A stretch of 14,330 bases of DNA, taken from an uncultured Mycoplasmatota bacterium (GTDB lineage Bacteria; Bacillota_I; Bacilli_A; RF39; UBA660). A model generated the notes under the pieces. It did no database searches and was not told the origin of the DNA. It was given only the letters and a program-made list of their open reading frames with translations. Positions within the stretch are counted from its first letter, which is position 1. Each line of letters starts with the position of its first letter. Of the stretch, positions 1,048 to 14,007 are shown piece after piece. Position numbers and translations under genes: made by a program. The stretch lies in NCBI GenBank assembly GCA_947643295.1, contig CANRVM010000018.1, positions 1 to 14,330 on the forward strand. The letters run 5' to 3'.

Positions 1048-1076
1048 ATGACATTTTCAGAAAAATGTAGTATATT
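1048..1076 (+). promoter_or_regulatory. Promoter of the putative antitoxin RNA
   Basis: The -35 box ATGACA (1048-1053, five of six to consensus) is exactly 17 bases from the -10 box TATATT (1071-1076, five of six). The start would be near 1083, about 75 bases before the terminator at 1159-1187. This is the usual layout of a type III antitoxin RNA gene: promoter, repeats, terminator, toxin. Confidence 0.55.
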
Positions 1077-1082
1077 TACATT

Positions 1083-1187
1083 GCACTTATAAGTGGGAAA
1101 ATGTTTTTCGCTTTCAGGTGGTGTGACTAATAAATGATCCTGGTTGAAAATGTAGAATAACTCTGTCGTAAGATGGAGTTTTCTTTT
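1083..1187 (+). ncRNA. Putative type III antitoxin RNA (ToxI/CptI-like)
   Basis: The stretch lies between a good promoter and an intrinsic terminator directly in front of a ToxN/AbiQ-like toxin gene, which is where type III systems encode their RNA antitoxin. Those antitoxins consist of direct repeats of about 35-50 nt, which the toxin, an endoribonuclease, cuts into pseudoknot units that bind and block it. Here a degenerate repeat is visible: GAAAATGT at 1097-1104 and again at 1146-1153, 49 bases apart, with a related AAAATGTAG copy at 1062 inside the promoter. A CAGG/CCTG pairing (1115-1118 with 1139-1142), extended outside by TTTC/GAAA, could form one hairpin of a unit. Perfect tandem repeats are absent, so the repeat part is weak and the position is the stronger argument. 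Confidence 0.5.
1159..1187 (+). terminator. Terminator between antitoxin RNA and toxin
   Basis: The arms AACTCTGTC (1159-1167) and GATGGAGTT (1172-1180) pair over nine positions with two G-U pairs around a GTAA loop, and TTCTTTT follows. In type III toxin-antitoxin loci such a leaky terminator sits between repeat RNA and toxin and sets their ratio. Here it lies 38 bases before the toxin start. Confidence 0.7.
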
Positions 1188-1224
1188 ACTTTATGGTATT
1201 ATATTATTTATGGAGTTGATGCAC

Positions 1225-1691
1225 ATGGAAATTAAAACTGGATATTTATACCATATAAAAGATGAATATTTCGATATTGCAAATGATGAAAATCTAATGC
1301 AAAATCATGAAAAAGGAAAGAAGCGACCAACTTACTTTACTGTTAAAGATAAAGATATATTATGGTTTATCCCTATAAGTTCTAAAGTCGATAAATATCA
1401 AAAAATAATTGATAAAAAATAGAAAAATATGGTTTTTGTAATACAATCATAATTAGAAAAATCGCAGATGAAAAAGCTGCAATATTACTTCAAAATGCGT
1501 TTCCACCATTAGAAAAATATATAGATCATGTGCATACAGTAGATGGTGTTCCATTAAAAATTCCAACTGATTTACAAAATGAAATAAAAAGCTTATTTAA
1601 AAATATGTTGGGTTTAAGAAAAAGAGGAACAAATTTATTTTTTACTGATATAGATAGTTTAAAACAAAAAATGTTAGAAGAAATAAAATAA
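1225..1691 (+). pseudogene. Frameshifted type III toxin, ToxN/AbiQ superfamily (CptN-like)
   Basis: The first part, MEIKTGYLYHIKDEYF onward, is open to a TAG at 1420-1422. The protein resumes in the -1 frame from 1419 as IEKYGFCNTIIIRK and runs about 90 more codons to a TAA at 1689-1691. One more A in the A6 run at 1414-1419 would give one continuous protein of about 155 residues, the usual size of ToxN-family endoribonucleases. From memory, recognisable family features are the N-terminal TGYLYHIKDEYF, then RPTYFTVKDKDILWFIPISS, then LLQNAFPPLEKYIDH and a C-terminal NLFFTDID. The start at 1225 is chosen because GGAG (1212-1215) lies nine bases upstream; a frame start at 1210 has no ribosome site. 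The upstream RNA and terminator support a type III system. The missing base may be real inactivation, a switch by slippage, or a base-calling error. Confidence 0.7.
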
Positions 1692-2668: not shown

Positions 2669-3475
2669 CTAATTTTCTTTCTTTTTTGTATAATCAATTG
2701 TTAGACTATCGACGATTTCAAATCGATGAGTTTGCTTTAATTTGTTATCTTTTTTATTTTTATCTATTTTATCAAAAAACATACTAGCAGGTCTTGTCCA
2801 TATATTAGAATCAGTACGATTATATAACGTTTTATAGATAATCATATATTCTTTTGTTTCTGAATTTAGACAGATATCTTCAATATAATAATAATTTCCT
2901 TTATAGTGCCTTACCACTTTCCCAATTAAATCAGCATATATTTTAGAACCATAGGTTCCATCTTCCTTGTAATATACAGGAGTTTTTTCATTATAATAAA
3001 GCAAATCATCACTAATTTCAGAATCAAGATATTCAAAAACAACTTGACCTAAACGCATGTTAGGAAGGAAAAGATAAGTATTCGGAGAATGGTTCGTAAG
3101 AGTTATATTTAAATTGCCTTTATATCCAGGATTTAAATGTTGAAAGGCTAAATTTAACCCTAATCGATTAAAAGAAGTTCTTCCTCTAATATGAGCACAA
3201 ATATTATTTGGCATCTGAAACCTATCTATAATAGGAACTAAAATAGTTTCTTGTGGTTTTAATTGATAACCATCTTTTATATTTACTTTGGTATACAAGT
3301 CTTCTAATTCTTCCATATCAGTAAAACAAATAAGTTTCTTTTTTTCTTTGAATTTTAAAATATAGTCAGCACCTGTAATATCATAAGAAGCTCCACGTAT
3401 ATTTTCTTTGATTACATTTTCGATTAATATTTTTTTATTTGTAAGTTCTTTTATTTTATTGCCGTTTACTACCAT
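2669..3475 (-). CDS. dCTP deaminase-fold protein fused to DUF1653
   Basis: Residues 1-180 follow the dCTP deaminase/dUTPase beta fold: GASYDI (28-33), the phosphate-binding stretch GRTSFNRLGL (98-107), HLNPGYKGNL (113-122), PNMRLGQVVFEYL (138-150) and the C-terminal arm motif DGTYGSKI (172-179). In this superfamily the enzymes deaminate dCTP or hydrolyse dUTP to supply dUMP and keep uracil out of DNA. Residues 185-254 form a second domain matching DUF1653 (GKVVRHYKGNYYYIED, then SETKEYMIIYKTLY and WTRPASMFF). The Asp used in dUTP hydrolysis is replaced by Asn115 and the Glu used in dCTP deamination (Glu138 in the E. coli enzyme) by Thr125, so ordinary catalysis is doubtful. It may bind nucleotides or act as a regulator. 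No signal peptide or membrane segment is seen. It is a single gene with its own promoter and terminator, divergent from the kinase operon. Confidence 0.8.
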   Translation of the reverse strand: MVVNGNKIKELTNKKILIENVIKENIRGASYDITGADYILKFKEKKKLICFTDMEELEDLYTKVNIKDGYQLKPQETILVPIIDRFQMPNNICAHIRGRTSFNRLGLNLAFQHLNPGYKGNLNITLTNHSPNTYLFLPNMRLGQVVFEYLDSEISDDLLYYNEKTPVYYKEDGTYGSKIYADLIGKVVRHYKGNYYYIEDICLNSETKEYMIIYKTLYNRTDSNIWTRPASMFFDKIDKNKKDNKLKQTHRFEIVDSLTIDYTKKKEN

Positions 3476-3498
3476 AGATTATTACCATCCTTTTCTTT

Positions 3499-3528
3499 AT
3501 TCTATCACAAATAATAGGAATTAGTAAA
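3499..3528 (-). promoter_or_regulatory. Promoter of the dCTP deaminase-like gene
   Basis: On the minus strand, TTTACT (3523-3528) is followed 18 bases later by TAGAAT (3499-3504), preceded by TGA, which makes an extended -10. The start codon at 3475 lies about 24 bases downstream, with AGGA as a likely ribosome site. The stretch TTTGTGATA around the -10 is shared with the promoter of the glycosyltransferase at 6219-7181. Confidence 0.55.
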
Positions 3529-3584
3529 TGAGAAGACGAAAAAAGCAAAAAAGTAGCTTTGTAGAAAAACAGAATAATTTTTCT

Positions 3585-3613
3585 TTGGTAGATTTCTAAT
3601 AACATGATATACT
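3585..3613 (+). promoter_or_regulatory. Promoter of the kinase-Smr-glycosyltransferase operon
   Basis: The -35 box TTGGTA (3585-3590) stands 17 bases before the -10 box TATACT (3608-3613), which is preceded by TGA and so is an extended -10. Transcription would start near 3620, almost at the ribosome site AGGTGAT (3620-3626), so the leader is very short. Confidence 0.6.
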
Positions 3614-3631
3614 ATTAGTAGGTGATAGAAT

Positions 3632-4537
3632 ATGAAATACGTTTGTGTTGGGCATGCAACCTATGATACCACATTGCCAGTAAATGGATACCCAAAAGAA
3701 AATATAAAATATCGAATCAAGGAAAAAAAAGAATGTGGAGGGGGACCTGCCTCTAATTCTGCTTATTTACTTGCCAAATGGGGATGTGATACTTCTTTTG
3801 TTGGTGTCATTGGTAATGATTATTACGGTCAATGTATTGTAAGAGAGTTAAACCATATGGGAGTAAATACAGAATATTTAGAAAAAAATTCAGAGATTGC
3901 AACAGATAGTAGCTATATTATTTGTAATATGGAAAATGGAAGTAGAACCATATTAACTTCTAAGAGTGCGAAAATAGCCAAACTTTCCAATCCTGTAGAG
4001 ATTAGAAATGCGGATTATCTATTAGTCGATGGAGAACATTATGAAACTGCAAAAGAAGTATTAGAAAATAATAAGAATGCGATTAGTGTAATCGATGCTG
4101 GAAGATGTAGTGAAGAAGTAATCTCTTTAGGAAAAATGGCTACCTATTTCATCTGTTCTAAGGATTTTGCGGAAGAATTTACCAAAATAAAAATAGACTC
4201 TTCTAATATAAATACTTTGATAAGAGCTTATGAAATATTAAAAGCCACTTTTAAAGGAGTTGTTATTATTACACTAGAAGCAGAAGGAAGTTTTACCAAA
4301 ACAGATACTTATCACATTATTCCTAGTATCAAAGTAAAAGCTATTGATTCTACTGGTGCTGGAGATATCTTTCATGCTGCATTCCTATATTTTATATCTC
4401 ACAACAACTCTCTTGAGAAAGCGATTCAGATGGCATCGATTACTTCGGCTATTTCAGTTACTAGAGTAGGGAGTAGATACGCCATACCAGAACTTAAAGA
4501 AGTCTTAGAGAGATTTAATGAGGATGATGTTATATAG
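3632..4537 (+). CDS. PfkB-family sugar kinase
   Basis: This cytoplasmic enzyme should transfer phosphate from ATP to a sugar or nucleoside hydroxyl, as ribokinase and fructokinase do. Its 301 residues match the family length. The N-terminal glycine-rich motif GGGPASNSA (36-44) closes over the substrate. The C-terminal signature DSTGAGDIFHAAF begins at Asp239; Asp245 in GAGD is the expected catalytic base and the glycines form the anion hole. A substrate-side Asp is present in YDTTLPV (11-17). The ribosome site AGGTGAT lies six bases before ATG. The stop overlaps the start region of the Smr gene, so the two are probably translationally coupled. The exact sugar cannot be told from the sequence; the neighbouring glycosyltransferases suggest nothing firm. 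Confidence 0.88.
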   Translation: MKYVCVGHATYDTTLPVNGYPKENIKYRIKEKKECGGGPASNSAYLLAKWGCDTSFVGVIGNDYYGQCIVRELNHMGVNTEYLEKNSEIATDSSYIICNMENGSRTILTSKSAKIAKLSNPVEIRNADYLLVDGEHYETAKEVLENNKNAISVIDAGRCSEEVISLGKMATYFICSKDFAEEFTKIKIDSSNINTLIRAYEILKATFKGVVIITLEAEGSFTKTDTYHIIPSIKVKAIDSTGAGDIFHAAFLYFISHNNSLEKAIQMASITSAISVTRVGSRYAIPELKEVLERFNEDDVI

Positions 4538-4778
4538 TAAAATGAAAAGTCTTGATCTTCATGGAATAGACCGAGATTATGCCAAAATATTAGTAAAAGA
4601 CTTCGTTGAAGATTCTAAAATAATGAAAGAAGAATATATATTAATTATTCATGGTATTGGCAAAGGAATTGTAAAAAAAGCAGTCTATGAAGAGCTAAAA
4701 AGAAATCCTTTAGTAAAGGAATATAAACAGGACAATTTTAATCCAGGATGTACGATAGTAAGAATTAAGATTAATTAG
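4518..4778 (+). CDS. Stand-alone Smr domain protein
   Basis: The 86-residue protein is little more than one Smr (small MutS-related) domain: LDLHG at 12-16 and HGIGKG at 45-50 are its two signature motifs, followed by the C-terminal NPGCTIVRI strand. Smr domains cut or bind branched or structured nucleic acid, and similar C-terminal domains occur in MutS2, which acts in recombination control and ribosome rescue. The gene overlaps the kinase stop (4535-4537) and its own stop is eight bases before the next ATG. The start is uncertain: ATGs at 4518, 4524, 4527 and 4542 are all in frame, the purine-rich GAGAG (4509-4513) supports the first ones, and the domain itself begins just after 4542. Confidence 0.82.
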   Translation: MRMMLYSKMKSLDLHGIDRDYAKILVKDFVEDSKIMKEEYILIIHGIGKGIVKKAVYEELKRNPLVKEYKQDNFNPGCTIVRIKIN

Positions 4779-4786
4779 GAGTGTTT

Positions 4787-6109
4787 ATGAAGAATAAAAG
4801 AAAAAAATTAAATAAAACTTCAACGAATTCACATATAAATTGTATATATATAGGAATTCTTTTTTTCTTTGTAGTATTATCTGTTTTTGTAAGTATCCAT
4901 CATGAACCTTGGGCAGATGAAGCAAATCCATGGTTAATAGCAAAAGGAGTCTCTGTATTAGACCTTTTTACAACCTATCTTCACTCGGAAGGACATCCTG
5001 CTCTTTGGTATCTAGTAATAAAAATATTTCAATGGTTTGGTTTAAAATACACGTATTTTTTTATCATTCCTATTTTCTTCTCTACTTTAGGCGTTGCTGT
5101 TTTCCTATTTAAATCTAATTTTAAAATTTACTTAAAAATATTATTTCCATTTACTTATTTTATATTCTATCAATACACAATTGTCGCTAGAGGTTATTGC
5201 TTAATTCTTTTACTCCTTTCCCTCATTGCGTGGATTTATCCAAAAAGAGAAGAACAATGTCTTACCTTTTCCTTTTTATTAATTCTACTATTAAGTCTTG
5301 AGTCCTATACTTATTTATTAAGTGGTTCTCTTTTTCTACTTTATCTTTACGATTACTATAAGTTAAAAAAAGAGGGGAAGAAGAACAAAAAGTATCGAAA
5401 CTGTTTAATTCTGTTATTCTTTTCCTTTTTCATAACTGCCATTTATGTATTCCCATCTTCTACTTATTCTTTGCCTCATCAAGGTTCTCTTTATTCTTTA
5501 TCTGATTCCTTCTTTACGAGTTTTCATAGTAGTAAGCTTATCAAATATTTTTCTACCATCTTTTTACTATTTCTTTTCTATTTTATCTATCAAAAACAAG
5601 GAACAAAAAGGAAAAAAATAGAGATTCTCTTATTACTACTGCCAATAATAGCCTTTTTTCTTCTTAAATATCATAATCTATGGCATTTAGGAATTATTTT
5701 GGAAGCCTTTCTTTTTTGTTTATGGATTCATCATTTGGAAAATAATAAAACATTTAATATGTTACTGCTTATTACTTTTTTAGTTCAAATTTCTTGGAGC
5801 ATCTCTTCTATCCATTATGATATCAAAAATAACTATAGTAGTGGAAGTGATGTCGCTAATTTCATAAAACAATACGACTACCAAAATATGGATATCTATG
5901 GAATGAGTTATTACGATGTAGTTGTTAATCCCTATTTTTCTAAAAATATTTATAAAAACTGGGAACAAAAATATTCTTTCTTCTATCTAGATTATAAAAA
6001 TAAATTCTATCAAAAAAAAATTGATGAAAATTTCATTCAAAAAGAAAAACCAGATATGATTGTGAATTCTACTATAATAAATATATCTTTAAAGGATACA
6101 CTTATGTAG
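4787..6109 (+). CDS. GT-C-like membrane glycosyltransferase, 3' end out of frame
   Basis: The protein is polytopic, with about ten hydrophobic segments (the first at residues 18-37). Just after the first it has HEPWADEANPW, with Asp44-Glu45, then SEGHPALWYL (67-76). A DE pair in the first extracytoplasmic loop followed by GHP is the pattern of GT-C enzymes (PMT/ArnT-like families), which move sugars from polyprenyl-phosphate donors to acceptors outside the membrane. The soluble tail (about 360-441) is Tyr-rich and typical of such proteins. The start is ATG 4787 because AGGAG (4777-4781) lies five bases upstream; an in-frame GTG at 4781 falls inside that site. The frame ends at TAG 6107, but matching sequence continues in the -1 frame to 6198, so one base is missing around 6068-6090. 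The core and catalytic loop are unaffected. Confidence 0.72.
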   Translation: MKNKRKKLNKTSTNSHINCIYIGILFFFVVLSVFVSIHHEPWADEANPWLIAKGVSVLDLFTTYLHSEGHPALWYLVIKIFQWFGLKYTYFFIIPIFFSTLGVAVFLFKSNFKIYLKILFPFTYFIFYQYTIVARGYCLILLLLSLIAWIYPKREEQCLTFSFLLILLLSLESYTYLLSGSLFLLYLYDYYKLKKEGKKNKKYRNCLILLFFSFFITAIYVFPSSTYSLPHQGSLYSLSDSFFTSFHSSKLIKYFSTIFLLFLFYFIYQKQGTKRKKIEILLLLLPIIAFFLLKYHNLWHLGIILEAFLFCLWIHHLENNKTFNMLLLITFLVQISWSISSIHYDIKNNYSSGSDVANFIKQYDYQNMDIYGMSYYDVVVNPYFSKNIYKNWEQKYSFFYLDYKNKFYQKKIDENFIQKEKPDMIVNSTIINISLKDTLM

Positions 6110-6198
6110 AAAATCAAAAATATGAAAATCAAGAAATCGTTGTTTATGTACGAAAAGAAAAAGATAAAATAAAGAATGCTAATACACATAAAAAGTAA
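6091..6198 (+). other. Displaced C-terminal codons of the GT-C gene
   Basis: In the -1 frame the stretch reads KGYTYVENQKYENQEIVVYV and continues with a basic tail to a TAA at 6196-6198. It looks like the natural last beta strands of the preceding glycosyltransferase, whose own frame stops at 6109 in the middle. It has no ribosome site or start codon of its own. It therefore marks a single-base deletion, true or technical, rather than a separate gene. Confidence 0.6.
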
Positions 6199-6230
6199 GA
6201 AAAAATCAAATTATCTTCTTACTTTTTCTT
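6190..6230. terminator. Bidirectional terminator between convergent genes
   Basis: A perfect 12-base inverted repeat, AAAAAGTAAGAA (6190-6201) and TTCTTACTTTTT (6216-6227), closes a 14-base loop. Each strand reads into a T run at its end. It overlaps the tails of both convergent glycosyltransferase genes and serves both. Confidence 0.8.
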
Positions 6231-7181
6231 TTCTAATAAATTTTCGCTAATGATATACCTTGGTCTTCCTTTTACTTCTTGATATATCTTTCCTATATAC
6301 TCACCAATCATACCTAAAGAAGCCATTTGGATACCTGCAATTAACCAGATGGAACAAACGATAAATGTCCAACCAGTTACCGTATTACCTGTTAACTTTC
6401 TAATTAAAGAATAAATAATAACCACAATACTAATCATAAAAATTAAAATTCCTAATATCAATATCATGCGAATGGGTTTAATACTAAAGGAAGTAATACC
6501 ATTCCATGCAAAATTTATCATCTTTTGTAAAGGATATTTACTAACACCAGCTAATCTTTTTTTTCTCTCATAATAAACAATATCTTGTTGGTAACCAATA
6601 AGAGGAAAAATCCCTCTTAAAAATAAGTTGACTTCATGAAAATTAGATAACTCTTCTAAAACCTTTTTACTAGTCAATCTAAAATCCGCATGATTAGATA
6701 TGATATCTGCCCCCATAAATCTCATAAGACGGTAAAAAAGATGAGCCGTTCCTTTTTTGAAAAGGCGATCTTTCTTTCTTTTGGAACGAACCCCATAAAC
6801 AATATCACAACCTTGATGATATTTTATAATCATAGAATCAATAACGTCAATATCATCTTGTAAGTCTGCATCCATACTAATTACAACATCTGCATATTTT
6901 AAAGAAGTCATTAACCCACCGAATAAAGCATTTTGATGTCCCATATTTCTAGAAAGAGAAATTCCTGTAAACTGTTTTTCTTTTTTGGAAATAGATTTTA
7001 TTATCTCCCAAGTATTATCTTTTGAACCATCATTTACATACATAACTTTACTTTTTCTACTAATAAGGTCCTTTTTAATCAAATTATCAATCTTTTTCTT
7101 TAATTCTTGTGTTGTATTTTCAATTACTTCTTCTTCATTATAACAAGGAATTACGATATATAAAATTGGTTTTGTTCTCAT
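6219..7181 (-). CDS. GT2 polyprenyl-phosphate glycosyltransferase (GtrB/DPM1-like)
   Basis: The enzyme should transfer a sugar from a nucleotide-sugar to undecaprenyl phosphate on the inner face of the membrane, making a lipid-linked donor. The GT-A catalytic domain shows PCYNEEE (12-18), VNDGSKDNT (49-57), SRNMGHQNAL (77-86) and DADLQDD (104-110), the metal-binding signature of this subfamily. Two C-terminal membrane segments lie near 240-261 and 273-297, and the end GMIGEYIGKIYQEVKGRP is the usual tail of GtrB-type proteins. Its 320 residues match the family. The ribosome site is AGGA, seven bases upstream. It is convergent with the GT-C gene, which would be a natural user of its product. 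The sugar is not predictable here, and no GtrA-type flippase gene is present in the window. Confidence 0.88.
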   Translation of the reverse strand: MRTKPILYIVIPCYNEEEVIENTTQELKKKIDNLIKKDLISRKSKVMYVNDGSKDNTWEIIKSISKKEKQFTGISLSRNMGHQNALFGGLMTSLKYADVVISMDADLQDDIDVIDSMIIKYHQGCDIVYGVRSKRKKDRLFKKGTAHLFYRLMRFMGADIISNHADFRLTSKKVLEELSNFHEVNLFLRGIFPLIGYQQDIVYYERKKRLAGVSKYPLQKMINFAWNGITSFSIKPIRMILILGILIFMISIVVIIYSLIRKLTGNTVTGWTFIVCSIWLIAGIQMASLGMIGEYIGKIYQEVKGRPRYIISENLLEKKK

Positions 7182-7216
7182 TTTAATCCTGCTTTCTTTT
7201 TTATATATTTTCTTCT

Positions 7217-7245
7217 ATTGTATCACAAATTGCTCTTTTTCTATT
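7217..7245 (-). promoter_or_regulatory. Promoter of the GT2 gene (extended -10)
   Basis: On the minus strand TACAAT (7217-7222) is preceded by TGA, an extended -10; the -35 position (AATAGA, 7240-7245) is poor. TTTGTGATA before the -10 is identical to the corresponding part of the promoter at 3499-3528. The start codon lies about 35 bases downstream. Confidence 0.45.
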
Positions 7246-7271
7246 AGAAAAAAAGAACTAAAAAATCTATT

Positions 7272-7300
7272 TTGGTTAGACACTATTCTAATAATATGAT
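7272..7300 (+). promoter_or_regulatory. Promoter of leader ORF and amidohydrolase gene
   Basis: TTGGTT (7272-7277) and TATGAT (7295-7300) are 17 bases apart. The start would be near 7307, ten bases before GAGGTGAT, the ribosome site of the small ORF at 7330. There is no terminator before the amidohydrolase gene, so this promoter probably serves both. Confidence 0.55.
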
Positions 7301-7329
7301 AAGATAAAAACATTACGAGGTGATTTTTA

Positions 7330-7383
7330 ATGAGAAAGTGTAGAATTCTTTTATTTCATTGTCTTAGATTTGGATTACTTTAG
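7330..7383 (+). CDS. 17-residue leader ORF
   Basis: A good ribosome site (GAGGTGAT, 7317-7324) precedes ATG by five bases, and the frame reads MRKCRILLFHCLRFGLL before TAG. It sits directly after a promoter and about 20 bases before a second strong Shine-Dalgarno. It could be a leader peptide that controls the following gene, or the 5' remnant of a broken gene. No ladder of repeated codons typical of amino acid attenuation is seen (Leu is frequent, five of 17). I do not recognise it. Confidence 0.35.
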   Translation: MRKCRILLFHCLRFGLL

Positions 7384-7400
7384 TATCATTAAAAAAAGAT

Positions 7401-7408
7401 AGGAGGAG
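7401..7408 (+). promoter_or_regulatory. Strong Shine-Dalgarno without a start codon
   Basis: AGGAGGAG is the best anti-16S match in this region, but no ATG, GTG or TTG in any frame follows at a normal distance. The downstream amidohydrolase frame is open from 7403 and its codons before ATG 7481 look like coding sequence (for example KKLRIYNKIFLENDKNG). An ATA codon in that frame at 7427 lies 18 bases away. The original start may have been lost by mutation. Confidence 0.5.
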
Positions 7409-7480
7409 AAAAAAGCAAATACATTAATAAAAAAGTTAAGAATTTATAATAAAATATTTTTAGAAAATGATAAGAATGGG

Positions 7481-8104
7481 ATGAAAATAAATGGTTGTGA
7501 TTATTTATTAAAAAGAGGAGAAATTCCTATTCTAATATCAGCACCTCATGCTGTAAAACAAGTAAGAGAAGAAAAAATAAAGGCTAATGATTATTTAACA
7601 GGGCCTCTTGCTATCTATATAGCAAATAGATGTCATTGTTCTTATCTTGTTAGATGTTATAATAATAATGATGATCCTAATTTTCCAATAGGGAAGACGC
7701 TACCATCTATCAATTCTTCTTACTTAAAGATATTAACAGATTTTATTCGTAAGTACCCACAATATCTTGTCATTGATTTACATGGATGTAGAAATAGTAG
7801 AAAATGTGACTGTAGTATTTGGTCTAGAGATACAAAGCCATGTGACAATCAGATTCTTACTATTTTTGAAAATCAACTAGAAAAGCACTCCCTCTCAGTG
7901 GATATGGGAAGTGAATTTTTGGGAGGACAAGTTACAAGACAATGTAGCAAGATTACAAATGCTTTTCAATTAGAAGTAAAGAAAAGAATTAGAAGTCTTA
8001 AAGAAGAAGATATTTTGTTATTAGAAGCATTTACTGTTTCTATGGAGCAAGCAATTATGGATTCTAATCACTATTACAAAGCTTATCAAAAAAGAAAAAA
8101 GTGA
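7481..8104 (+). CDS. N-formylglutamate amidohydrolase-family protein
   Basis: The family consists of zinc-dependent hydrolases; the named activity cleaves formate from N-formylglutamate in histidine breakdown, but many Gram-positive members have unknown amide substrates. Visible motifs are SAPHA (20-24), DLHGCRNS (99-106), with His as a likely metal ligand, GGQVTRQ (148-154) and AFQLEV (161-166), in the family order. Cys residues are numerous (nine in 207), including a CDC pair. No histidine-utilisation genes are nearby, so a role in histidine breakdown is not supported. ATG 7481 has only a weak purine-rich site; the reading frame is open back to 7403 and starts beside AGGAGGAG (7401-7408), so the native protein may be about 26 residues longer with an altered start. 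TGA ends the gene. Confidence 0.75.
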   Translation: MKINGCDYLLKRGEIPILISAPHAVKQVREEKIKANDYLTGPLAIYIANRCHCSYLVRCYNNNDDPNFPIGKTLPSINSSYLKILTDFIRKYPQYLVIDLHGCRNSRKCDCSIWSRDTKPCDNQILTIFENQLEKHSLSVDMGSEFLGGQVTRQCSKITNAFQLEVKKRIRSLKEEDILLLEAFTVSMEQAIMDSNHYYKAYQKRKK

Positions 8105-8129
8105 CCAAAAAAAGTTAAACTAAGGAGCC

Positions 8130-8160
8130 ATATTCTATAATTTATTAGAGTATACTTTTT
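8130..8160 (+). terminator. AU-rich terminator after the amidohydrolase gene
   Basis: ATATTCTA (8130-8137) and TAGAGTAT (8146-8153) pair over eight positions with one G-U and an eight-base loop, followed by ACTTTTTT. The stem is weak because it has one G-C pair only. Confidence 0.45.
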
Positions 8161-8177
8161 TATCTAACAGATTTTAT

Positions 8178-8206
8178 TTGACTTTTTCCTTTTTTTATGT
8201 TACTAT
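8178..8206 (+). promoter_or_regulatory. Promoter of the two-gene membrane protein operon
   Basis: TTGACT (8178-8183) is 17 bases before TACTAT (8201-8206), which is preceded by TGT and is therefore an extended -10. The start would be near 8213, and a very strong ribosome site, AGGGGGGAG (8220-8228), comes at once. Confidence 0.6.
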
Positions 8207-8232
8207 ATATGGCAACTTAAGGGGGGAGTCTA

Positions 8233-9720
8233 ATGAAAGATAATAATCAATATACTTATGATGAATATGATGATGACTATTATTACGATGAAGAGGAAAT
8301 AGACGAAGAAGAATATGCAAATTATCAAGAAGAAGATTATGAATATGATGATGACTATGATGACGAATATGACGATGATAATCAAAAATTTGATATAAAA
8401 AATCTTTTTAATCGAAATAAATTACTTACTATTTTCCTAGTTGTGGTAGCAGTTACATTACTTATCTTTACTGGAAACCGTATTTTATCAAACAATCATA
8501 AAGAAGAGAAGAAATCAAATATTGTAGTTAAGAACAAAGAAGTAGAAAGTAATATGGAAAAAGACATTGAAAGTATTAAAGAGAAAATGTTAAATTACTA
8601 TAATAGTGATAATGTTCCAAAAGAGATTGATGATGAGAATTCTTTAACATTAAAAGAATTAAAAGAAAAAAACATAGTTGATAAACTTTCTATTGATAAT
8701 TATGATTTAGAAAAATCTTATGTTAAAATTACAAAAGAAGAAGATAGTTATAAACTAGATATTTATTTAAATAATAATAAATATTCAAAATCTAAAACTT
8801 TTGAAGTCAATCATTATGATTATTGTACAAATAGTTTTCTATGTATCAGAAATGATAAATTAAAAGATAGTATTAAGCCTTCTGATAAAGAAATATCAGA
8901 AAAAGAGAATAAAGAGGAAGAAAAAGAAAGTACTAGTAAAGATGATAATAAAGAAAATAGTAAAACTTATGTATATAAGTATGTAAAGAGGAATGGTGGA
9001 AAGCTATCTAATTGGTCTTTATGGACAAATTATCAAAGAACAGATTGTAATACAACAAGTACTACTTGTGAGCCAAATGATACCAATTGTTTAAAAGAAG
9101 TAAAATTATTTCAAAGAAAAGAGAGAATTGGTAGTTATCCTAAAGTTTATCGAACAACAAAAAGTGCATTAGTAGCAGGAACAACAGAAACTAAAAAAGC
9201 TTGTAGTACTGCAGATTATGTTAAAATTAATGGCAATTATTATCAAATTCCATTAAATAGTAATTACCAAAGTATCATAGGAATTACCTCAAATACAAAA
9301 TCTACTCGTGGTAGTTGGGTATATCATGGTAGAAGAGTTTATCAAACACCTCCAGCAGATAGTATTAATACAAAATATATTTATGTTGGATTTGATGATT
9401 CTAATTGTGGAGATACTTGTAGTAATTTACCAAATTATATTTATGATGTATATACTTTTAATAAAAGTATGTCAAGAGTTAGTAGTACAGCAACAGGTTG
9501 TAAGAGTACAGTAAGTAAACAAATACCAAGTTATTCAATTTTATCTACTACAGTTTCCATCACAAGAGATGAAGGAATATATGGTACTGTATGTTATGCT
9601 AGTAGTAGAACAAGAAAGATAGAGGCTTCATCCAACAGTGATGTGAAATGGAGTAGTTATAATAATAAAGAATTATTAAATAATGGATATCAATATACCG
9701 GAGAAAAAAAAGAAAAATAA
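8233..9720 (+). CDS. Single-pass membrane protein, acidic N-terminus, Cys-rich outer domain
   Basis: I do not recognise the family. Residues 1-53 are almost only Asp, Glu and Tyr (for example DDDYYYDEEEIDEEE). A short basic stretch (FNRNK, 59-63) and one membrane segment (64-81, LLTIFLVVVAVTLLIF) follow, so by the positive-inside rule the acidic tail is cytoplasmic and residues 85-495 are outside. A Lys/Glu linker (about 205-245) precedes a Cys-rich domain with about nine Cys. Its opening LSNWSLWTNY (W261, W264) and later KVYRTTK recall the layered Trp-Arg pattern of thrombospondin type 1 repeats, a resemblance only. An earlier CTNSFLC pair lies near 197-203. The stop is 13 bases before the next ATG, so it is in an operon with the 973-residue protein, which has the same topology and similar acidic stretches. 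A cell-surface or envelope role is inferred. Confidence 0.7.
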   Translation: MKDNNQYTYDEYDDDYYYDEEEIDEEEYANYQEEDYEYDDDYDDEYDDDNQKFDIKNLFNRNKLLTIFLVVVAVTLLIFTGNRILSNNHKEEKKSNIVVKNKEVESNMEKDIESIKEKMLNYYNSDNVPKEIDDENSLTLKELKEKNIVDKLSIDNYDLEKSYVKITKEEDSYKLDIYLNNNKYSKSKTFEVNHYDYCTNSFLCIRNDKLKDSIKPSDKEISEKENKEEEKESTSKDDNKENSKTYVYKYVKRNGGKLSNWSLWTNYQRTDCNTTSTTCEPNDTNCLKEVKLFQRKERIGSYPKVYRTTKSALVAGTTETKKACSTADYVKINGNYYQIPLNSNYQSIIGITSNTKSTRGSWVYHGRRVYQTPPADSINTKYIYVGFDDSNCGDTCSNLPNYIYDVYTFNKSMSRVSSTATGCKSTVSKQIPSYSILSTTVSITRDEGIYGTVCYASSRTRKIEASSNSDVKWSSYNNKELLNNGYQYTGEKKEK

Positions 9721-9733
9721 GGAGTGAGAAAGA

Positions 9734-12655
9734 ATGGAAAGAATGGAAAAAATCGAGAAACTAATTTGGAATGTATTAGATAATGAGGAACAGGCAGATT
9801 TACACATATATTATGCAGATGGCAGTAACCTTACTTATCATTTCCCAGAAGAGAAAAAGTTTGTTCAAAATATTATGAAAGATGCTTTTTCACAGTATAA
9901 TGTTAAAAATGTAGACGAATTACAAGAACTTAATATTTTAAATCGAACAGCACCTGATAACTTTGAAGAAACAGAAAAAGAAGTTTTAGAAGTAATAGAT
10001 TACAAAAAATTATATGAACAGTTAGGAGAAGCAGATTCCATAATTGAAGATATGAATGACACCTTTGATGATGAGGAAGAAGTAGAAAATACTAGTAGCC
10101 TCCCTACTATTACTGCAGAAGATGCTGATTTTGATGAATATGAAGATGGGGATACAAATAACCGTTTTGATGATGAGGAAAGAGGCTCATCTGTAGTTGA
10201 AGATTTTAATCAAGAAATTAAAGAGTATCTAGATGAGGAAGGTTTTCTAAAAGTAAACTTTCTAGTAGCGAGCCCGAATAAATTTTGCTTTTTCTGTGAA
10301 GAGGACAAGGTGTTAGAGTATAATTATGAAGATCTCATAAATGATGATGATATGCTTGCAGAAGCAAGGTGGTATTTTTTACGATTAGCTCAACAACAGG
10401 GAATCCGATTTGATGAAGAGAATATTACTTGTTTCGAAGATTATCTTATTGGTAAACCAAATGAAATCATAGAGGAATTAGAATCAAAAAATCTCCTAGT
10501 TGCTTACCCTAATGATGAATTTGAAAGGTTATATGAACATATGGAAATTGTGAATTCTAAAATGAATGGAACATACCAAGATGATTCTGATAAAGATACA
10601 AAAGACCCATGGAAGGCTCTTCTTGATACTTTTAACCAAAATATCGCAGAAGGTAAAAAGTTCTATACAGAAGCAGAAAAGAAGGCTATCAATGAATGTA
10701 AAGTAGCTTATATAAAAGCAATGACAAAGTATCAACGTGCACTTGACAAAGCAAATGAGAAATATAACAAAAAAATAGATAATGCAAAAAATGAGAAAGC
10801 TATTCAAAGAGCAGGAGACGATTACGATATAGCACGCCATAATGCATACTATGATTATGAAAAATCCTATGAAAAAGCAATAAATAAGCTTGATAAGAAG
10901 TTCTCAAAAGCAGAAAGAAATCAAACAAAATGGAATGAAAAGGCACTAGAAAAACAAATGTTAGCTAGCATGTCAAGAAAAGAAAAACACCAATATAAAC
11001 GGGGAAAAAGAAAAGATGCCACTAAAAATTTCTTAGGAAAAATACCTATTGTTAGAAAAATAGTTCAAAAGGATAGTTCAAACAAAAAGAAAAAAGGTGG
11101 TATCTTACGTAGAGCAGCTAAGTACCTGTTCATTACTATTACTACGATAGTAATTGGTTTCTGTGCATTCTTTTCCAAAGAATCGAATTCATTCAAAGGT
11201 CTATTTAACCAAAATAAAAACACTTTAGAAAATCAAACCAATCATTCAAATAATAACAAGAATCATACTAAGAATAAAAATCATACTAAAAAATATAAAA
11301 ATATAAAAGATGCATTATCTCATGCTAATATCAATGATTCTAAAAAACATGTCTTTAGTGGAGTATCTGGATTCTTAAGAAATTATAATACTGCTATTGC
11401 CAAAGAAAACTCAAAAGGAAAAACAAAATTAGCTCATACATGGAATGAAGTGTTTGCTTTCTATCTTGGTGTTAATAATATTAGTCAAGAAAAGATTAAT
11501 AATATCTTAGATTCTTATAATTTTAAGGCAAATCAATTTCTTCAAGCTTTCAAAAAAGGAATTCAACAAGATGTTCAAGCATATATTGTTAGCAAAACAG
11601 AAATCAATAAAGACCATTTAATAGAAGGAAGTAAAGGACAAATGTTCCTTACAAACTACGAAAAACAGTTAACAAAACTAAAATCTCTAAAAGATAATAG
11701 TAACATTACTAGAGAATATGTTGCTAATCAATTCTATGAAATGGTTAGAAAAGATTATTTATCAAAAAATTCAGAAATGAAAGCCTATAAAGCAGCTGCA
11801 CTTCCAATTATTAAAGCAATGAATATCTTAACAGAAGACCTTCATTTTGAAAACAAATTAAGTCTTGATGAGAGGAAAGAAATTAATCGTAAAGTCTATG
11901 AAAATGTAGAAAAACGCTTCCAATCTTATGAGAATAAATTAGCAGCTCATATTGCAGCAAATGGACTTACTACTGATGATGAACTTTCTTATGAGGAATT
12001 AAGAGATTTAGTAATTAATGGATTAAAAGCAAACAATAATTACAATGTAATTGCTAAAAAGCGTGATATTACAAATCAGAAAAATTATAAGGTAACAATT
12101 AAGAAGATGAAGCCTACTGTAGTTGAAAATCATACAAATCAATCATCAGAAAACAAACAACAAGAAACTACGAAAAAACAATCAAAATATAAAGTTACCG
12201 TTAAAAGTAATAGAAAAAGCTCAAAATTATATACTGCAAAAGAATCGAAAGATATAATTAGCCCTATCGAAGGAGATTACTATGATTTTGATGAGGAGGA
12301 TACCATTGTTCGTCCATCTATAGATAATGATCAATTTAATCGTGATCATTTCAATCATGATGATATTAACTTTGATAATGTAGGTTCTGATGATAATATA
12401 ATAGATAATGGAACAATCGATGACTCTTATCAAGATGATAATGGTAATCTGGATAATACAGTAAAAGATCCTACTACTGACTCAACAGGAGCAGTTAATA
12501 ATGATACAGCACTTCCAGATCCAAATGTTCCTAATAGCGAGCAAACAGTTAGTGGAAATCATGATATGAATGAGGTAGTTGCCGAGCAAATCGTTGATGA
12601 TATGGCCAATAACCCATCATCATCAGATTCCATAAAAGTATTTTTTAAGAAGTAA
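9734..12655 (+). CDS. Very large single-pass membrane protein of unknown function
   Basis: Not recognised. The 973 residues fall into blocks: an N-terminal part (1-110), an acidic linker (about 112-160, FDDEEEVEN and FDEYEDGD), a second globular part (about 165-280), a Lys/Ala-rich helical, probably coiled-coil stretch (about 294-420), a very basic stretch (420-462, KRGKRKD and SNKKKKGG), one membrane segment (464-480, YLFITITTIVIGFCAFF), an Asn/Lys/His-rich linker with NHTKNKNHTK, a helical outer domain (about 520-780), a Thr/Ser/Lys linker with twin motifs NYKVTIKK and KYKVTVKS, and an Asp/Asn-rich tail. The basic flank puts the first half inside the cell. The ribosome site GGAG (9721-9724) lies nine bases before ATG. 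It follows the 495-residue membrane protein within 13 bases, so both probably work in one envelope-spanning assembly; that is inference. Confidence 0.7.
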   Translation: MERMEKIEKLIWNVLDNEEQADLHIYYADGSNLTYHFPEEKKFVQNIMKDAFSQYNVKNVDELQELNILNRTAPDNFEETEKEVLEVIDYKKLYEQLGEADSIIEDMNDTFDDEEEVENTSSLPTITAEDADFDEYEDGDTNNRFDDEERGSSVVEDFNQEIKEYLDEEGFLKVNFLVASPNKFCFFCEEDKVLEYNYEDLINDDDMLAEARWYFLRLAQQQGIRFDEENITCFEDYLIGKPNEIIEELESKNLLVAYPNDEFERLYEHMEIVNSKMNGTYQDDSDKDTKDPWKALLDTFNQNIAEGKKFYTEAEKKAINECKVAYIKAMTKYQRALDKANEKYNKKIDNAKNEKAIQRAGDDYDIARHNAYYDYEKSYEKAINKLDKKFSKAERNQTKWNEKALEKQMLASMSRKEKHQYKRGKRKDATKNFLGKIPIVRKIVQKDSSNKKKKGGILRRAAKYLFITITTIVIGFCAFFSKESNSFKGLFNQNKNTLENQTNHSNNNKNHTKNKNHTKKYKNIKDALSHANINDSKKHVFSGVSGFLRNYNTAIAKENSKGKTKLAHTWNEVFAFYLGVNNISQEKINNILDSYNFKANQFLQAFKKGIQQDVQAYIVSKTEINKDHLIEGSKGQMFLTNYEKQLTKLKSLKDNSNITREYVANQFYEMVRKDYLSKNSEMKAYKAAALPIIKAMNILTEDLHFENKLSLDERKEINRKVYENVEKRFQSYENKLAAHIAANGLTTDDELSYEELRDLVINGLKANNNYNVIAKKRDITNQKNYKVTIKKMKPTVVENHTNQSSENKQQETTKKQSKYKVTVKSNRKSSKLYTAKESKDIISPIEGDYYDFDEEDTIVRPSIDNDQFNRDHFNHDDINFDNVGSDDNIIDNGTIDDSYQDDNGNLDNTVKDPTTDSTGAVNNDTALPDPNVPNSEQTVSGNHDMNEVVAEQIVDDMANNPSSSDSIKVFFKK

Positions 12656-12657
12656 AA

Positions 12658-12686
12658 TTGACAATTTGATGAATTTATGCTATAAT
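12658..12686 (+). promoter_or_regulatory. Perfect consensus sigma-A promoter
   Basis: TTGACA (12658-12663) and TATAAT (12681-12686) match consensus at every base with the ideal 17-base spacer, and TGC before the -10 adds the extended element. It begins two bases after the stop of the preceding gene. Such a promoter should be strong and unregulated unless a repressor covers it. The leader of about 44 bases contains two GGGGG tracts, the second being the ribosome site. Confidence 0.85.
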
Positions 12687-12736
12687 ATGTATGTTTTACT
12701 TGGGGGATTATATAGTATTTTAAGGGGGTTGAATAC

Positions 12737-13159
12737 ATGACGATTAATTCTTATATATTTGAATATTTAGATGAAAATGATTTTAGAAAAAAAGAAAGAT
12801 CTGTTAGAAAGTATAATATGTTAGCTTATAAGAAATTAACATTTAATTATTATCCAGAACTTAGAAAGGGGAACTTTCTTGGAGAGGAAGTAGCAAAAGA
12901 TGAGAAAAAACATACCGTATCTTATGAATTAAAACTTCCAACGGATGAAATGTTTACGAAAGTACATGGAGAAATTAGACTACATTATACTGCTTATCTA
13001 GATAAAAAAGTAATACTACTTACTAACATTACTCCAGAAGGAATTCTAAACGAAGGACATCGTGCAGAACTTTCTACTTATAAAGGGGTTATGGTATCTA
13101 AAACCAATCCTGAAAAAGATATGTTTAAAATCAATTTACTAAATATGTTAGATAAATAA
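12737..13159 (+). CDS. Conserved-looking small cytoplasmic protein, unknown
   Basis: The 140-residue product has no signal peptide, membrane segment or motif that I recognise. It is mixed charged and probably alpha/beta: an N-terminal helix rich in Lys and Arg (15-35), then strands such as HTVSYELKLP, EIRLHYTAYL and KKVILLTNITPEGIL, and a C-terminal FKINLLNMLDK. AGGGGG (12722-12728) precedes ATG by about eight bases. It stands alone between the strongest promoter of the window and a strong terminator, so it should be abundant. Its place before yebC may reflect only local order, since yebC has its own promoter. That it is a real gene is well supported by these signals; its function is open. 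Confidence 0.75.
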   Translation: MTINSYIFEYLDENDFRKKERSVRKYNMLAYKKLTFNYYPELRKGNFLGEEVAKDEKKHTVSYELKLPTDEMFTKVHGEIRLHYTAYLDKKVILLTNITPEGILNEGHRAELSTYKGVMVSKTNPEKDMFKINLLNMLDK

Positions 13160-13165
13160 AAGTGT

Positions 13166-13208
13166 AAAAGCCTTTAGAAAAGATAATATCTTAATAAGGG
13201 CTTTTTTT
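13166..13208 (+). terminator. Strong intrinsic terminator
   Basis: AAAAGCCTTTA (13166-13176) pairs with TAAGGGCTTTT over 11 positions with one G-U. A second helix, AAGAT/ATCTT, extends the stem inside, and a T7 run ends it. It separates the orphan gene from yebC. Confidence 0.85.
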
Positions 13209-13228
13209 ATACCTACTGGGATTACAGA

Positions 13229-13257
13229 TTTACAAGAAATTCAATCAGTGCTATAAT
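13229..13257 (+). promoter_or_regulatory. yebC promoter
   Basis: TTTACA (13229-13234) is 17 bases before TATAAT (13252-13257), which is preceded by TGC. The start near 13264 leaves a leader of about 24 bases containing the ribosome site AGGAG (13276-13280). Confidence 0.75.
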
Positions 13258-13287
13258 AACAGTAGAAAATGTGAGAGGAGAATTGAT

Positions 13288-14007
13288 ATGAGTGGACATT
13301 CTAAATGGGCAACGATCCATCGAAAAAAAGGATTAATTGATGCTGCTAGAGGAAAAGTATTTCAAAAATTAGCAAAAGAAATTTTTGTAGCTGCAAAGTC
13401 GGGTACACCTGACGTAGAACAAAATGCATCTTTACGTATGGTAGTGGAAAAAGCAAAAGCTGCGAATATGCCAAAAGACAATATTCAAAAAGCAATCGAT
13501 AAAGCAAAAGGAGCAGGAGATGCAGAGCATTATGATCAAATAAGATATGAGGGATATGGACCTTGTGGTGTAGCAGTTATTGTGGATTGCCTTACGGATA
13601 ATAAAAACAGAACAGCCTCTTTTGTTAGAAGTACCTTTACGAAAAAAGGTGGTAATTTAGGAACAGATGGCTCTGTTAGTTATATGTTTGAAAGAAAAGG
13701 ATCTATTGTCATTCCAAACACATATCCAGAAGATGATATCATGTTAGTAAGCCTAGATAATGGAGCATTAGATGTCGTAAACGATGGAGAAAATTATATG
13801 ATTACAACGGGTCCTGCTGATATGCTAAAGGTAAAAGATGCTCTTTCTGAAATGGGAGTAGATACCTTTTTAGAAAGCGAAGTTACCTATCTTCCTAATA
13901 TGGAAGTAGAGGTAGATGAAGAACACAAAGAAAAAGTATTACAATTAATAGAACAACTAGAAGATATCGATGATGTTCAAAGTGTTTATTTTAACATGAA
14001 AGATTAA
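13288..14007 (+). CDS. yebC: YebC/PmpR/TACO1-family protein
   Basis: The 239 residues match the family in length and along the whole sequence: the invariant start MSGHSKWATIHRKK, RGKVFQKLAKEI, ANMPKDNIQKAIDKA, the YEGYGPCGVAVIV loop, TDNKNRTASFVRSTFTKKGG and LGTDGSVSYMF. Members are cytoplasmic. They were long described as DNA-binding regulators (PmpR in Pseudomonas), while the mitochondrial TACO1 and recent bacterial work point to a role in translation, including difficult polyproline stretches. The sequence does not decide between these roles. The protein has no unusual insertion or loss. It has its own promoter and terminator, so it is a one-gene unit. AGGAG lies seven bases before ATG. 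Confidence 0.95.
   Translation: MSGHSKWATIHRKKGLIDAARGKVFQKLAKEIFVAAKSGTPDVEQNASLRMVVEKAKAANMPKDNIQKAIDKAKGAGDAEHYDQIRYEGYGPCGVAVIVDCLTDNKNRTASFVRSTFTKKGGNLGTDGSVSYMFERKGSIVIPNTYPEDDIMLVSLDNGALDVVNDGENYMITTGPADMLKVKDALSEMGVDTFLESEVTYLPNMEVEVDEEHKEKVLQLIEQLEDIDDVQSVYFNMKD

Follow-up and report, generated by a model that had tools for sequence, protein, structure and literature searches.

The window analysed here, a stretch of 14,330 nucleotides from an uncultured Mycoplasmatota bacterium, carries at 1048-1691 what is very probably (we put the probability at roughly 0.93) a degenerate type III toxin-antitoxin locus of the CptIN family, in which a frameshifted cptN follows an RNA that reads as an ordinary CptI unit, the remainder of an array that once had two. 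That the locus is a decayed CptIN is well supported, and as such it is ordinary in kind; the surprise is the wider story of the antitoxin, in which the number of units is tied to the living toxin and CptI pairs stand alone near phage tRNA genes.

Anatomy of the locus

The antitoxin RNA is preceded by a sigma-70-type promoter (ATGACA-17-TATATT, agreeing with the consensus at 10 of 12 bases) at 1048..1076 on the forward strand, which carries all the features of the locus. The count of promoter-like sites was not clearly greater than chance (4 found vs. a mean of 2.1 in shuffles), and the relatives had TTGACA-17-TATATT, or a site near it, at the same position wherever enough upstream DNA was visible. 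The promoter is followed by a small 5' leader hairpin, read by eye (CACU/AGUG, loop UAUA; 1084..1095), and the relatives showed, also by eye, a hairpin of different letters at the leader position. At 1097..1153 lies one CptI antitoxin unit, boundary repeats included: the two copies of GAAAATGT, at 1097-1104 and 1146-1153, are spaced by exactly 49 bases and turned out to be CptI unit-boundary sequences enclosing one whole pseudoknot unit recognized by our model R2. An intrinsic terminator, placed as in CptIN loci between the antitoxin and the toxin gene, lies at 1159..1190, with a stem of 9 pairs (1159-1180) running into a T-rich tail (1 found vs. a mean of 0.0 in shuffles). From the positions of promoter and terminator, an antitoxin RNA of ~100 nt is predicted. 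Intact relatives showed the same order of promoter, RNA, terminator, and toxin, and the promoter, the repeats 49 bases apart, the terminator, and the type III arrangement proposed in the first-pass annotation were all borne out. In type III loci, some transcripts pass the terminator into the toxin gene.

The toxin gene consists of two pieces in different frames, with a net -1 shift between ~1415 and 1422, and the intact reading frame of a CptIN toxin is missing. The N-terminal piece (1210..1422) covers positions 1-65 and the C-terminal piece (1416..1691, searched from 1452) positions 65-154 of the 154-position CptN profile built from relatives, so that the frameshift-split protein noticed earlier spans the whole profile. 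Searched separately, both pieces matched NCBIfam NF047359 (CptIN; E 7e-22 for the N-terminal piece and 2e-14 for the C-terminal one) and the solved CptN structure 4rmo (E 4.8e-8 and 4.5e-5), in agreement with the CptN-like toxin suggested at first. The NF047359 scores are 77.8 and 53.9 bits; each piece alone stays under the 90 bits curated as the cut-off for the whole protein, as expected for half proteins. At E up to 1, neither Pfam nor PADLOC nor NCBIfam gave a ToxN- or TenpN-type match for either piece, although all three libraries contain ToxN and TenpN models, and membership in ToxIN or TenpIN was rejected on this ground; the sole Pfam rows for the first piece were two zinc fingers under the cut-off (E 0.028 and 0.21). 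With ToxIN/AbiQ and TenpIN the locus shares its general architecture and class of mechanism. The family was reportedly defined by Blower 2012 in NAR.

A single shift adjoining an A-run could be an error of sequencing or assembly, in which case the locus would be a working CptIN with one unit. We consider this very improbable: breaks are also apparent in the longest frames at ~480-960 and 1886-2540, in contrast to the long, clean frames of 2669-14007, a pattern that makes regional decay likelier than a sequencing error, and none of the 115 intact toxins described below clearly has one unit. The degenerate locus thus appears to sit in a decaying stretch, and its toxicity has presumably been lost.

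The neighborhood held further features. The apparently broken gene at 480-960, beside the dead CptIN, has an RNVIEH motif that we take to be HEPN-like (its piece 650-805 had no match in Pfam), and the longest frame of another apparently broken gene, at 1886-2540, had no match in NCBIfam or Pfam. On the reverse strand, 2669-3475 encodes a dCTP deaminase-like protein that continues for ~90 residues past the matched domain. A conserved small-RNA-like element at 138-205 (TTTAAGAAACTTACGAAGCCTTAAGTCAA.. and then a terminator-like hairpin), for which no Rfam family reached the gathering score, recurs in L028, L091/L145, L131, L264/L286, and L270, all CptIN or CptI loci.

The CptI unit and the number of units

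Model R2 was built from 48 diverse units (alignment A2) of loci with intact toxins, with the window excluded. Its match at 1098-1149 (62.7 bits, E 5e-16) identifies a CptI unit upstream of the toxin, folding as an H-type pseudoknot with S1 UCGC/GUGA and S2 UCAGG/CCUGG; one G-U pair per stem reflects two stem changes toward G-U. The units of A2 share this form, with S1 close to UCGC/GCGA, an S2 of 5 bp, and L2 close to UAAUAAAUNAU. For the RNA of the locus, Rfam returned no family at the gathering score, and the rows below it were at chance level. The divergent, little-repeated antitoxin of the first-pass annotation thus gave way to an ordinary CptI unit in an array that has lost one of two; that the RNA "outlived its toxin" holds for its sequence only, in that the unit persists beside the broken cptN.

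The pseudoknot in the 48 units is supported by covariation. All five S2 pairs showed changes on both sides, double-change cells numbered 91 (shuffles gave 28.0, and slid controls no more than 22), and the covariation score was 0.507 vs. 0.212 shuffled. The number of pairs with a double change (7 vs. 6.1; 145 of 500 shuffles as high) and that of further pair types (17 vs. 15.5; 102 of 500) were not above the shuffles. The share of paired cells in A2 is biased, since the units were preselected by a first regex count that required pairing and served only for choosing the model units.

With the C-terminal piece as query, genome contigs yielded 54 loci with identity of up to 91%. These relatives are assigned to uncultured Bacilli, Tenericutes, and Erysipelotrichaceae; an origin in animal guts is suggested by isolate names such as Lapin, Goat, and Water_deer. 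Among 385 genomes of the order of genome G005, 114 had a CptN match, 96 of them exceeding the family cut-off. We analysed 120 CptN regions, the first 40 of which had been picked for a broken, partial, or odd match, so that the share of broken genes in the set is not a natural frequency. R2 undercounts units, because its adjacent 52-nt matches overlap at a period of ~49-51 nt; for counting we therefore used a 42-column profile of the unit core that relies on sequence alone (in L120 this profile scored no unit, and R2 saw a weak one of 34.7 bits). The count dropped 56 duplicates, 21 placements with <200 nt upstream, one cut by a contig end, and two second fragments.

The number of units turned out to differ sharply between intact and broken toxins. 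Among 115 intact toxins, 113 had two units, one had four (L210), and one had a single unit by the profile (L215), for which a pairing scan revealed a second, divergent pseudoknot. Among 32 broken toxins, two units were retained in 18, one in 10 (the window included), and none in 4, while three further toxins with an N-terminal shift alone had two units each. For one vs. two or more units, the difference between intact and broken toxins gave a Fisher p of 1.8e-7, which ignores kinship. The relatives thus form a natural experiment, in which the unit number is two while CptN lives and variable after its death: the array appears to be held at two beside a living toxin (113 of 115 intact vs. 18 of 32 broken) and may shrink once the toxin is dead, although contraction is not a necessary outcome, as the 18 broken loci with two units show. 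The locus itself has one unit where its clade has a tandem array of two.

The manner of the loss can be read from the junction, where the flank of unit 1 (GAAAATG) runs straight into the unit 2 body, as recombination between units would produce. The unit remaining in L053 and L131 is likewise chimeric, with S2 unpaired; L131, one of the ten broken loci with one unit, was classed as broken on account of an internal stop, and its sequence ends shortly after the toxin pieces.

The intact toxins had upstream a leader hairpin and usually two units of ~49-51 nt. In the working form suggested by these relatives, one promoter would give an RNA with the leader hairpin and the two pseudoknot units, followed by the terminator and cptN, and CptN, an endoribonuclease, would cleave this RNA into units and be inhibited by them. 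Such cutting and inhibition by RNA units are known for type III systems and for CptIN of Eubacterium rectale. We infer the following order of events at the locus: cptN was frameshifted, the constraint on the unit number would have been relaxed with the death of the toxin, and recombination between the two units would have reduced the array to one.

The structure 4RMO is that of CptIN of Eubacterium rectale (Rao et al. 2015, PMC4627078). As given in the accessible parts of that paper, it has the same toxin family and the same order of RNA units and toxin; its unit is also an H-pseudoknot with a long A-rich L2, but of 45 nt compared with ~49 nt here, and its two genetic repeats resemble the array of the relatives rather than the single unit of the locus. 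The toxin is broken here, and the letters of S1 and S2 differ. A leader hairpin was seen in our loci, while the words hairpin, stem-loop, and leader are absent from the text of PMC4627078. The 2:2 CptIN complex described there matches the two units found with a living CptN and, by analogy, offers a possible reason for them. ToxI-type arrays, according to excerpts of a review (PMC5086642), have 2.8-5.5 repeats of 34-36 nt.

The reverse order, in which the loss of a unit freed the toxin and thereby selected for the frameshift, was also considered. It would account for the lack of single-unit intact toxins apart from L215 (by the profile, and itself with a second, divergent pseudoknot), and, in the excerpts of the same review (PMC5086642), AbiQ clones with 0.8 repeat were inviable. 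We nevertheless regard it as unlikely, since 18 of the 32 broken toxins retain two units, so that toxins evidently break without contraction, and since one CptI repeat was sufficient under overexpression, and fully antitoxic, in the E. rectale system, as stated in the accessible parts of PMC4627078. Death of the toxin before contraction is thus the order that we prefer.

Other arrangements were seen among the relatives. The four units of L210 are arranged as two pairs beside an intact CptN, the sole such array among the 115. Tandem pairs of CptIN loci occur in L008, L015, L020, and L218; the unit sequences differ between the tandem copies in L008, L020, and L218, and the second copy in L015 consists of one unit and a broken toxin.

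Toxin-free CptI arrays on chromosomes

Matches to R2 (E up to 1e-4) were found in 142 of the 385 genomes of the order; CptI alone was present in 35 genomes, CptN alone in 7, and both in 107. From 68 loci we read 61 distinct arrays, taken from the best-scoring rows and from chosen genomes and hence not a random sample. A CptN trace lay within 1 kb downstream in 4 of these arrays, 12 had <900 nt of downstream sequence, and 45 had at least 900 nt and no CptN trace. Counted by hand, the 45 toxin-free arrays comprised 27 with two units, 16 with one, and 2 with more; one of the 45, L255, lies directly behind another CptN. Natural toxin-free CptI arrays were the subject of none of the matches listed in a search of the titles and abstract beginnings of open-access literature.

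The array lay in 11 loci behind a gene resembling that for the pyruvate, phosphate dikinase of L263 (ppdK; NCBIfam, E 3e-214), and the same site also hosts intact and broken CptIN. A PPDK tree with 31 ends (19 intact, 7 solo, and 5 broken, two genomes being represented twice) was weakly supported, with 15 of 28 branches open; the intact, broken, and toxin-free states were mixed on it, and the solo state required 6 changes vs. a shuffled mean of 6.4, i.e., it did not cluster. This scatter suggests that the toxin may have been lost repeatedly at the ppdK site, and it gives no support to a long persistence of solo arrays. A comparison of flanks in nine pairs, made to assess selection on solo arrays, gave a striking contrast in some pairs but is confounded by toxin-bearing copies and recombination. 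The solo arrays of L263 and L265, for instance, are identical at 91 of 92 positions, with 917 of 1297 (71%) identical in the upstream DNA, mostly ppdK, but this is no proof of selection, because toxin-bearing copies have the same array type; in L278 and L280 the downstream DNA is near-identical and the upstream DNA 87% identical.

These arrays bear on whether the one-unit RNA of the locus might still be expressed and kept as an anti-addiction antidote against CptN of other loci or of incoming elements. The RNA retains its promoter, leader, pseudoknot, and terminator beside the broken toxin, CptI without CptN is common (the 35 genomes above), the arrays of L263 and L265 are far more alike than their upstream DNA, and in the E. 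rectale system one CptI unit was enough for full antitoxic activity (PMC4627078, accessible parts). Against this, the same array type occurs with an intact toxin at the same site, so that the identity of L263 and L265 may predate the loss of the toxin, and solo arrays are unclustered on the ppdK tree. The unit of the locus has its two changes toward G-U, and the chimeric units of L053 and L131 leave S2 unpaired. Compared with the nearest intact unit, changed pairs were kept or broken in a ratio of 43/14 in intact loci, 7/5 in broken loci with two units, and 6/3 in those with one, numbers too few to indicate constraint. Finally, the parts of PMC4627078 that were accessible report no cross-protection by CptI RNAs among three CptIN systems. 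A retained antidote therefore seems rather doubtful to us, and a leftover unit beside a dead toxin remains the preferred reading.

CptI units and similar pseudoknots in phages

Pattern scans of viral contigs, one of which gave no matches, set a lower bound on the units present. Units beside a CptN match were found in at least seven loci among the matches listed (L289, L293, L295, L296, L316, L319, and L434), L293 and L296 being identical around the array, and L292 had one unit with pieces of CptN. With the L316 toxin as query, four plasmids (of Megamonas, Planococcus, Oscillibacter, and Virgibacillus) and no named phage were matched at E up to 1e-4.

Three contigs, representing two sequences (L290/L291 and L294), carry a CptI pair near tRNA genes without CptN: an hmmsearch with a 240-sequence profile found none at E up to 1 in the 3.6, 12.8, and 5.6 kb examined in L290, L291, and L294, respectively. 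The 3.6 kb of L290, from a 128-kb contig, recur without a difference within L291 (53-kb contig); the two units of this sequence are 50 nt apart, with 4-5 tRNA genes in the sequence examined. L294 (61-kb contig) has two units 48 nt apart and 14 tRNA genes. S1 and S2 are complete in all these units, with one G-U in S2 of L294 unit 1. R2 recognized complete type III antitoxin units in both sequences (33.8 bits, E 1e-7, and 25.0 bits, E 6e-5, in L290/L291; 55.7 bits, E 3e-14, for L294 unit 1), while L294 unit 2 was not listed and was seen by pairing alone. In the part compared, unit 1 of L290 differs from unit 1 of the CptN locus L289 only by a swapped outer S1 pair. A search of 50,697 named phage records for the L290 and L294 arrays found nothing, and CptI pairs in phage tRNA clusters were not the subject of any match listed among open-access titles and abstract beginnings. 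An Rfam search of the phage pseudoknots and arrays of 10 loci returned no family for them, the rows obtained being 43 tRNAs and one "drum" RNA; the latter adjoins the phage CptI pair at L290:1539-1654 on the reverse strand, near the same tRNA genes.

L304 (two units), L305, L307, L309, L311, L320, and L484 matched R2 less well (E 2e-5 to 2e-2), with no CptN beside them in the sequence examined; L308 equals L305 around the unit. L448 (R2 E 0.13), L405, and L322 (not listed by R2) lack model support as CptI. Rejected were L297-L301, where the pattern is present and a CptI-like pseudoknot is missing (L300 shows a weak chance fold only). A local-shuffle control found a perfect 5-bp S2 at 9 of 20 distinct GTCGCT sites vs. 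0.5 expected, 4 of the 9 lying in toxin-bearing arrays or in the truncated L306, whose array equals that of L319, and at 2 of 9 CTCGCT sites vs. 0.1; broad TCGCT, which includes both, gave 17 of 110 vs. 3.0, CCGCT 5 of 113 vs. 2.6, and ACGCT 3 of 107 vs. 2.0. The control thus supports the GTCGC family of viral matches but not the CCGC and ACGC families. Phage-type genes lie near some of the units, 8 of 10 neighboring proteins tested having a match, among them an exonuclease (L294), terminase-like proteins (L304 and L305), a helicase (L307), an integrase (L320), and a polymerase or reverse-transcriptase-like protein (L291).

A decoy-antitoxin role of the phage CptI pairs is plausible. Type III antitoxin mimicry by a phage has a precedent in the pseudo-ToxI of PhiTE, likewise a toxin-free, phage-borne antitoxin-like RNA; in the parts of PMC3475682 that were available, it is of ToxI type, has 1.5 repeats in the wild type, forms no complete pseudoknot, and gains function by expansion. 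In contrast, the pairs of L290/L291 and L294 are of CptI type, have two complete units, and lie near tRNA genes. Phage tRNAs themselves have been proposed or shown to evade host defences (PMC10264068 and PMC11555353, partial texts).

One match of the viral scan, L323, is the Pseudomonas phage PAK_P1. A 501-base query around its unit matched 165 phage records (158 of Pseudomonas, 6 of Acinetobacter, and 1 of Pectobacterium) and a 141-base query 150, 121 of them at ≥80% coverage, counts that concern the query and not the unit itself. The pseudoknot was present in all 14 regions read (Pakpunavirus, Otagovirus, and two P. putida phages), with tRNA-Trp annotated directly behind it in 8 and another gene following in 2 (L458 and L464). 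In 11 distinct rows, 99 of 99 cells were paired and 18 were double-change cells (6.6 shuffled, at most 6 slid); these rows are few and related, and their double-change pairs (4 vs. 3.3) and further pair types (5 vs. 6.6) were not above the shuffles. The L2 loop (~UAAUAARUG) and the stem order resemble CptI. R2 gave 14.3 bits (E 0.1) for PAK_P1, did not list L451 and L456 at E up to 10, and matched nothing at the pseudoknot site of PAK_P3. No Pseudomonas CptN was found in the two collections searched (named phages and plasmids), where the L316 toxin finds no named phage and only the four other plasmids, so that a CptN target in Pseudomonas would be conjectural. By analogy, these pseudoknots perhaps work like CptI without being members of it.

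A broader reading can be offered tentatively, at somewhat less than even odds: the phage CptI pairs would be decoys against host CptN, the Pseudomonas pseudoknot would act likewise against some type III toxin, and the solo and decayed loci would be the host counterpart. It draws on the stand-alone pairs near phage tRNA genes, which would join two differently lettered units on one RNA, and on the similar, conserved Pseudomonas phage pseudoknot in three genera (Pakpunavirus, Otagovirus, and Nankokuvirus). Should the phage pairs work in this way, antitoxin mimicry by RNA would amount to a natural counter-defence of CptI type among phage tRNA genes.

The third genus is represented by PAK_P3, where GTCGC-GGGTC-GCGAC-GACCC was read by eye directly behind tRNA-Gln. 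A small RNA between tRNAs, sRNA2, is described for this related Pseudomonas phage in the available parts of PMC4933390; it is annotated at L690 8345-8478, whereas the pseudoknot, at L690:8608-8639 (PAK_P3 86607-86638), falls outside it, unannotated, between tRNA-Gln and a terminator-like hairpin.
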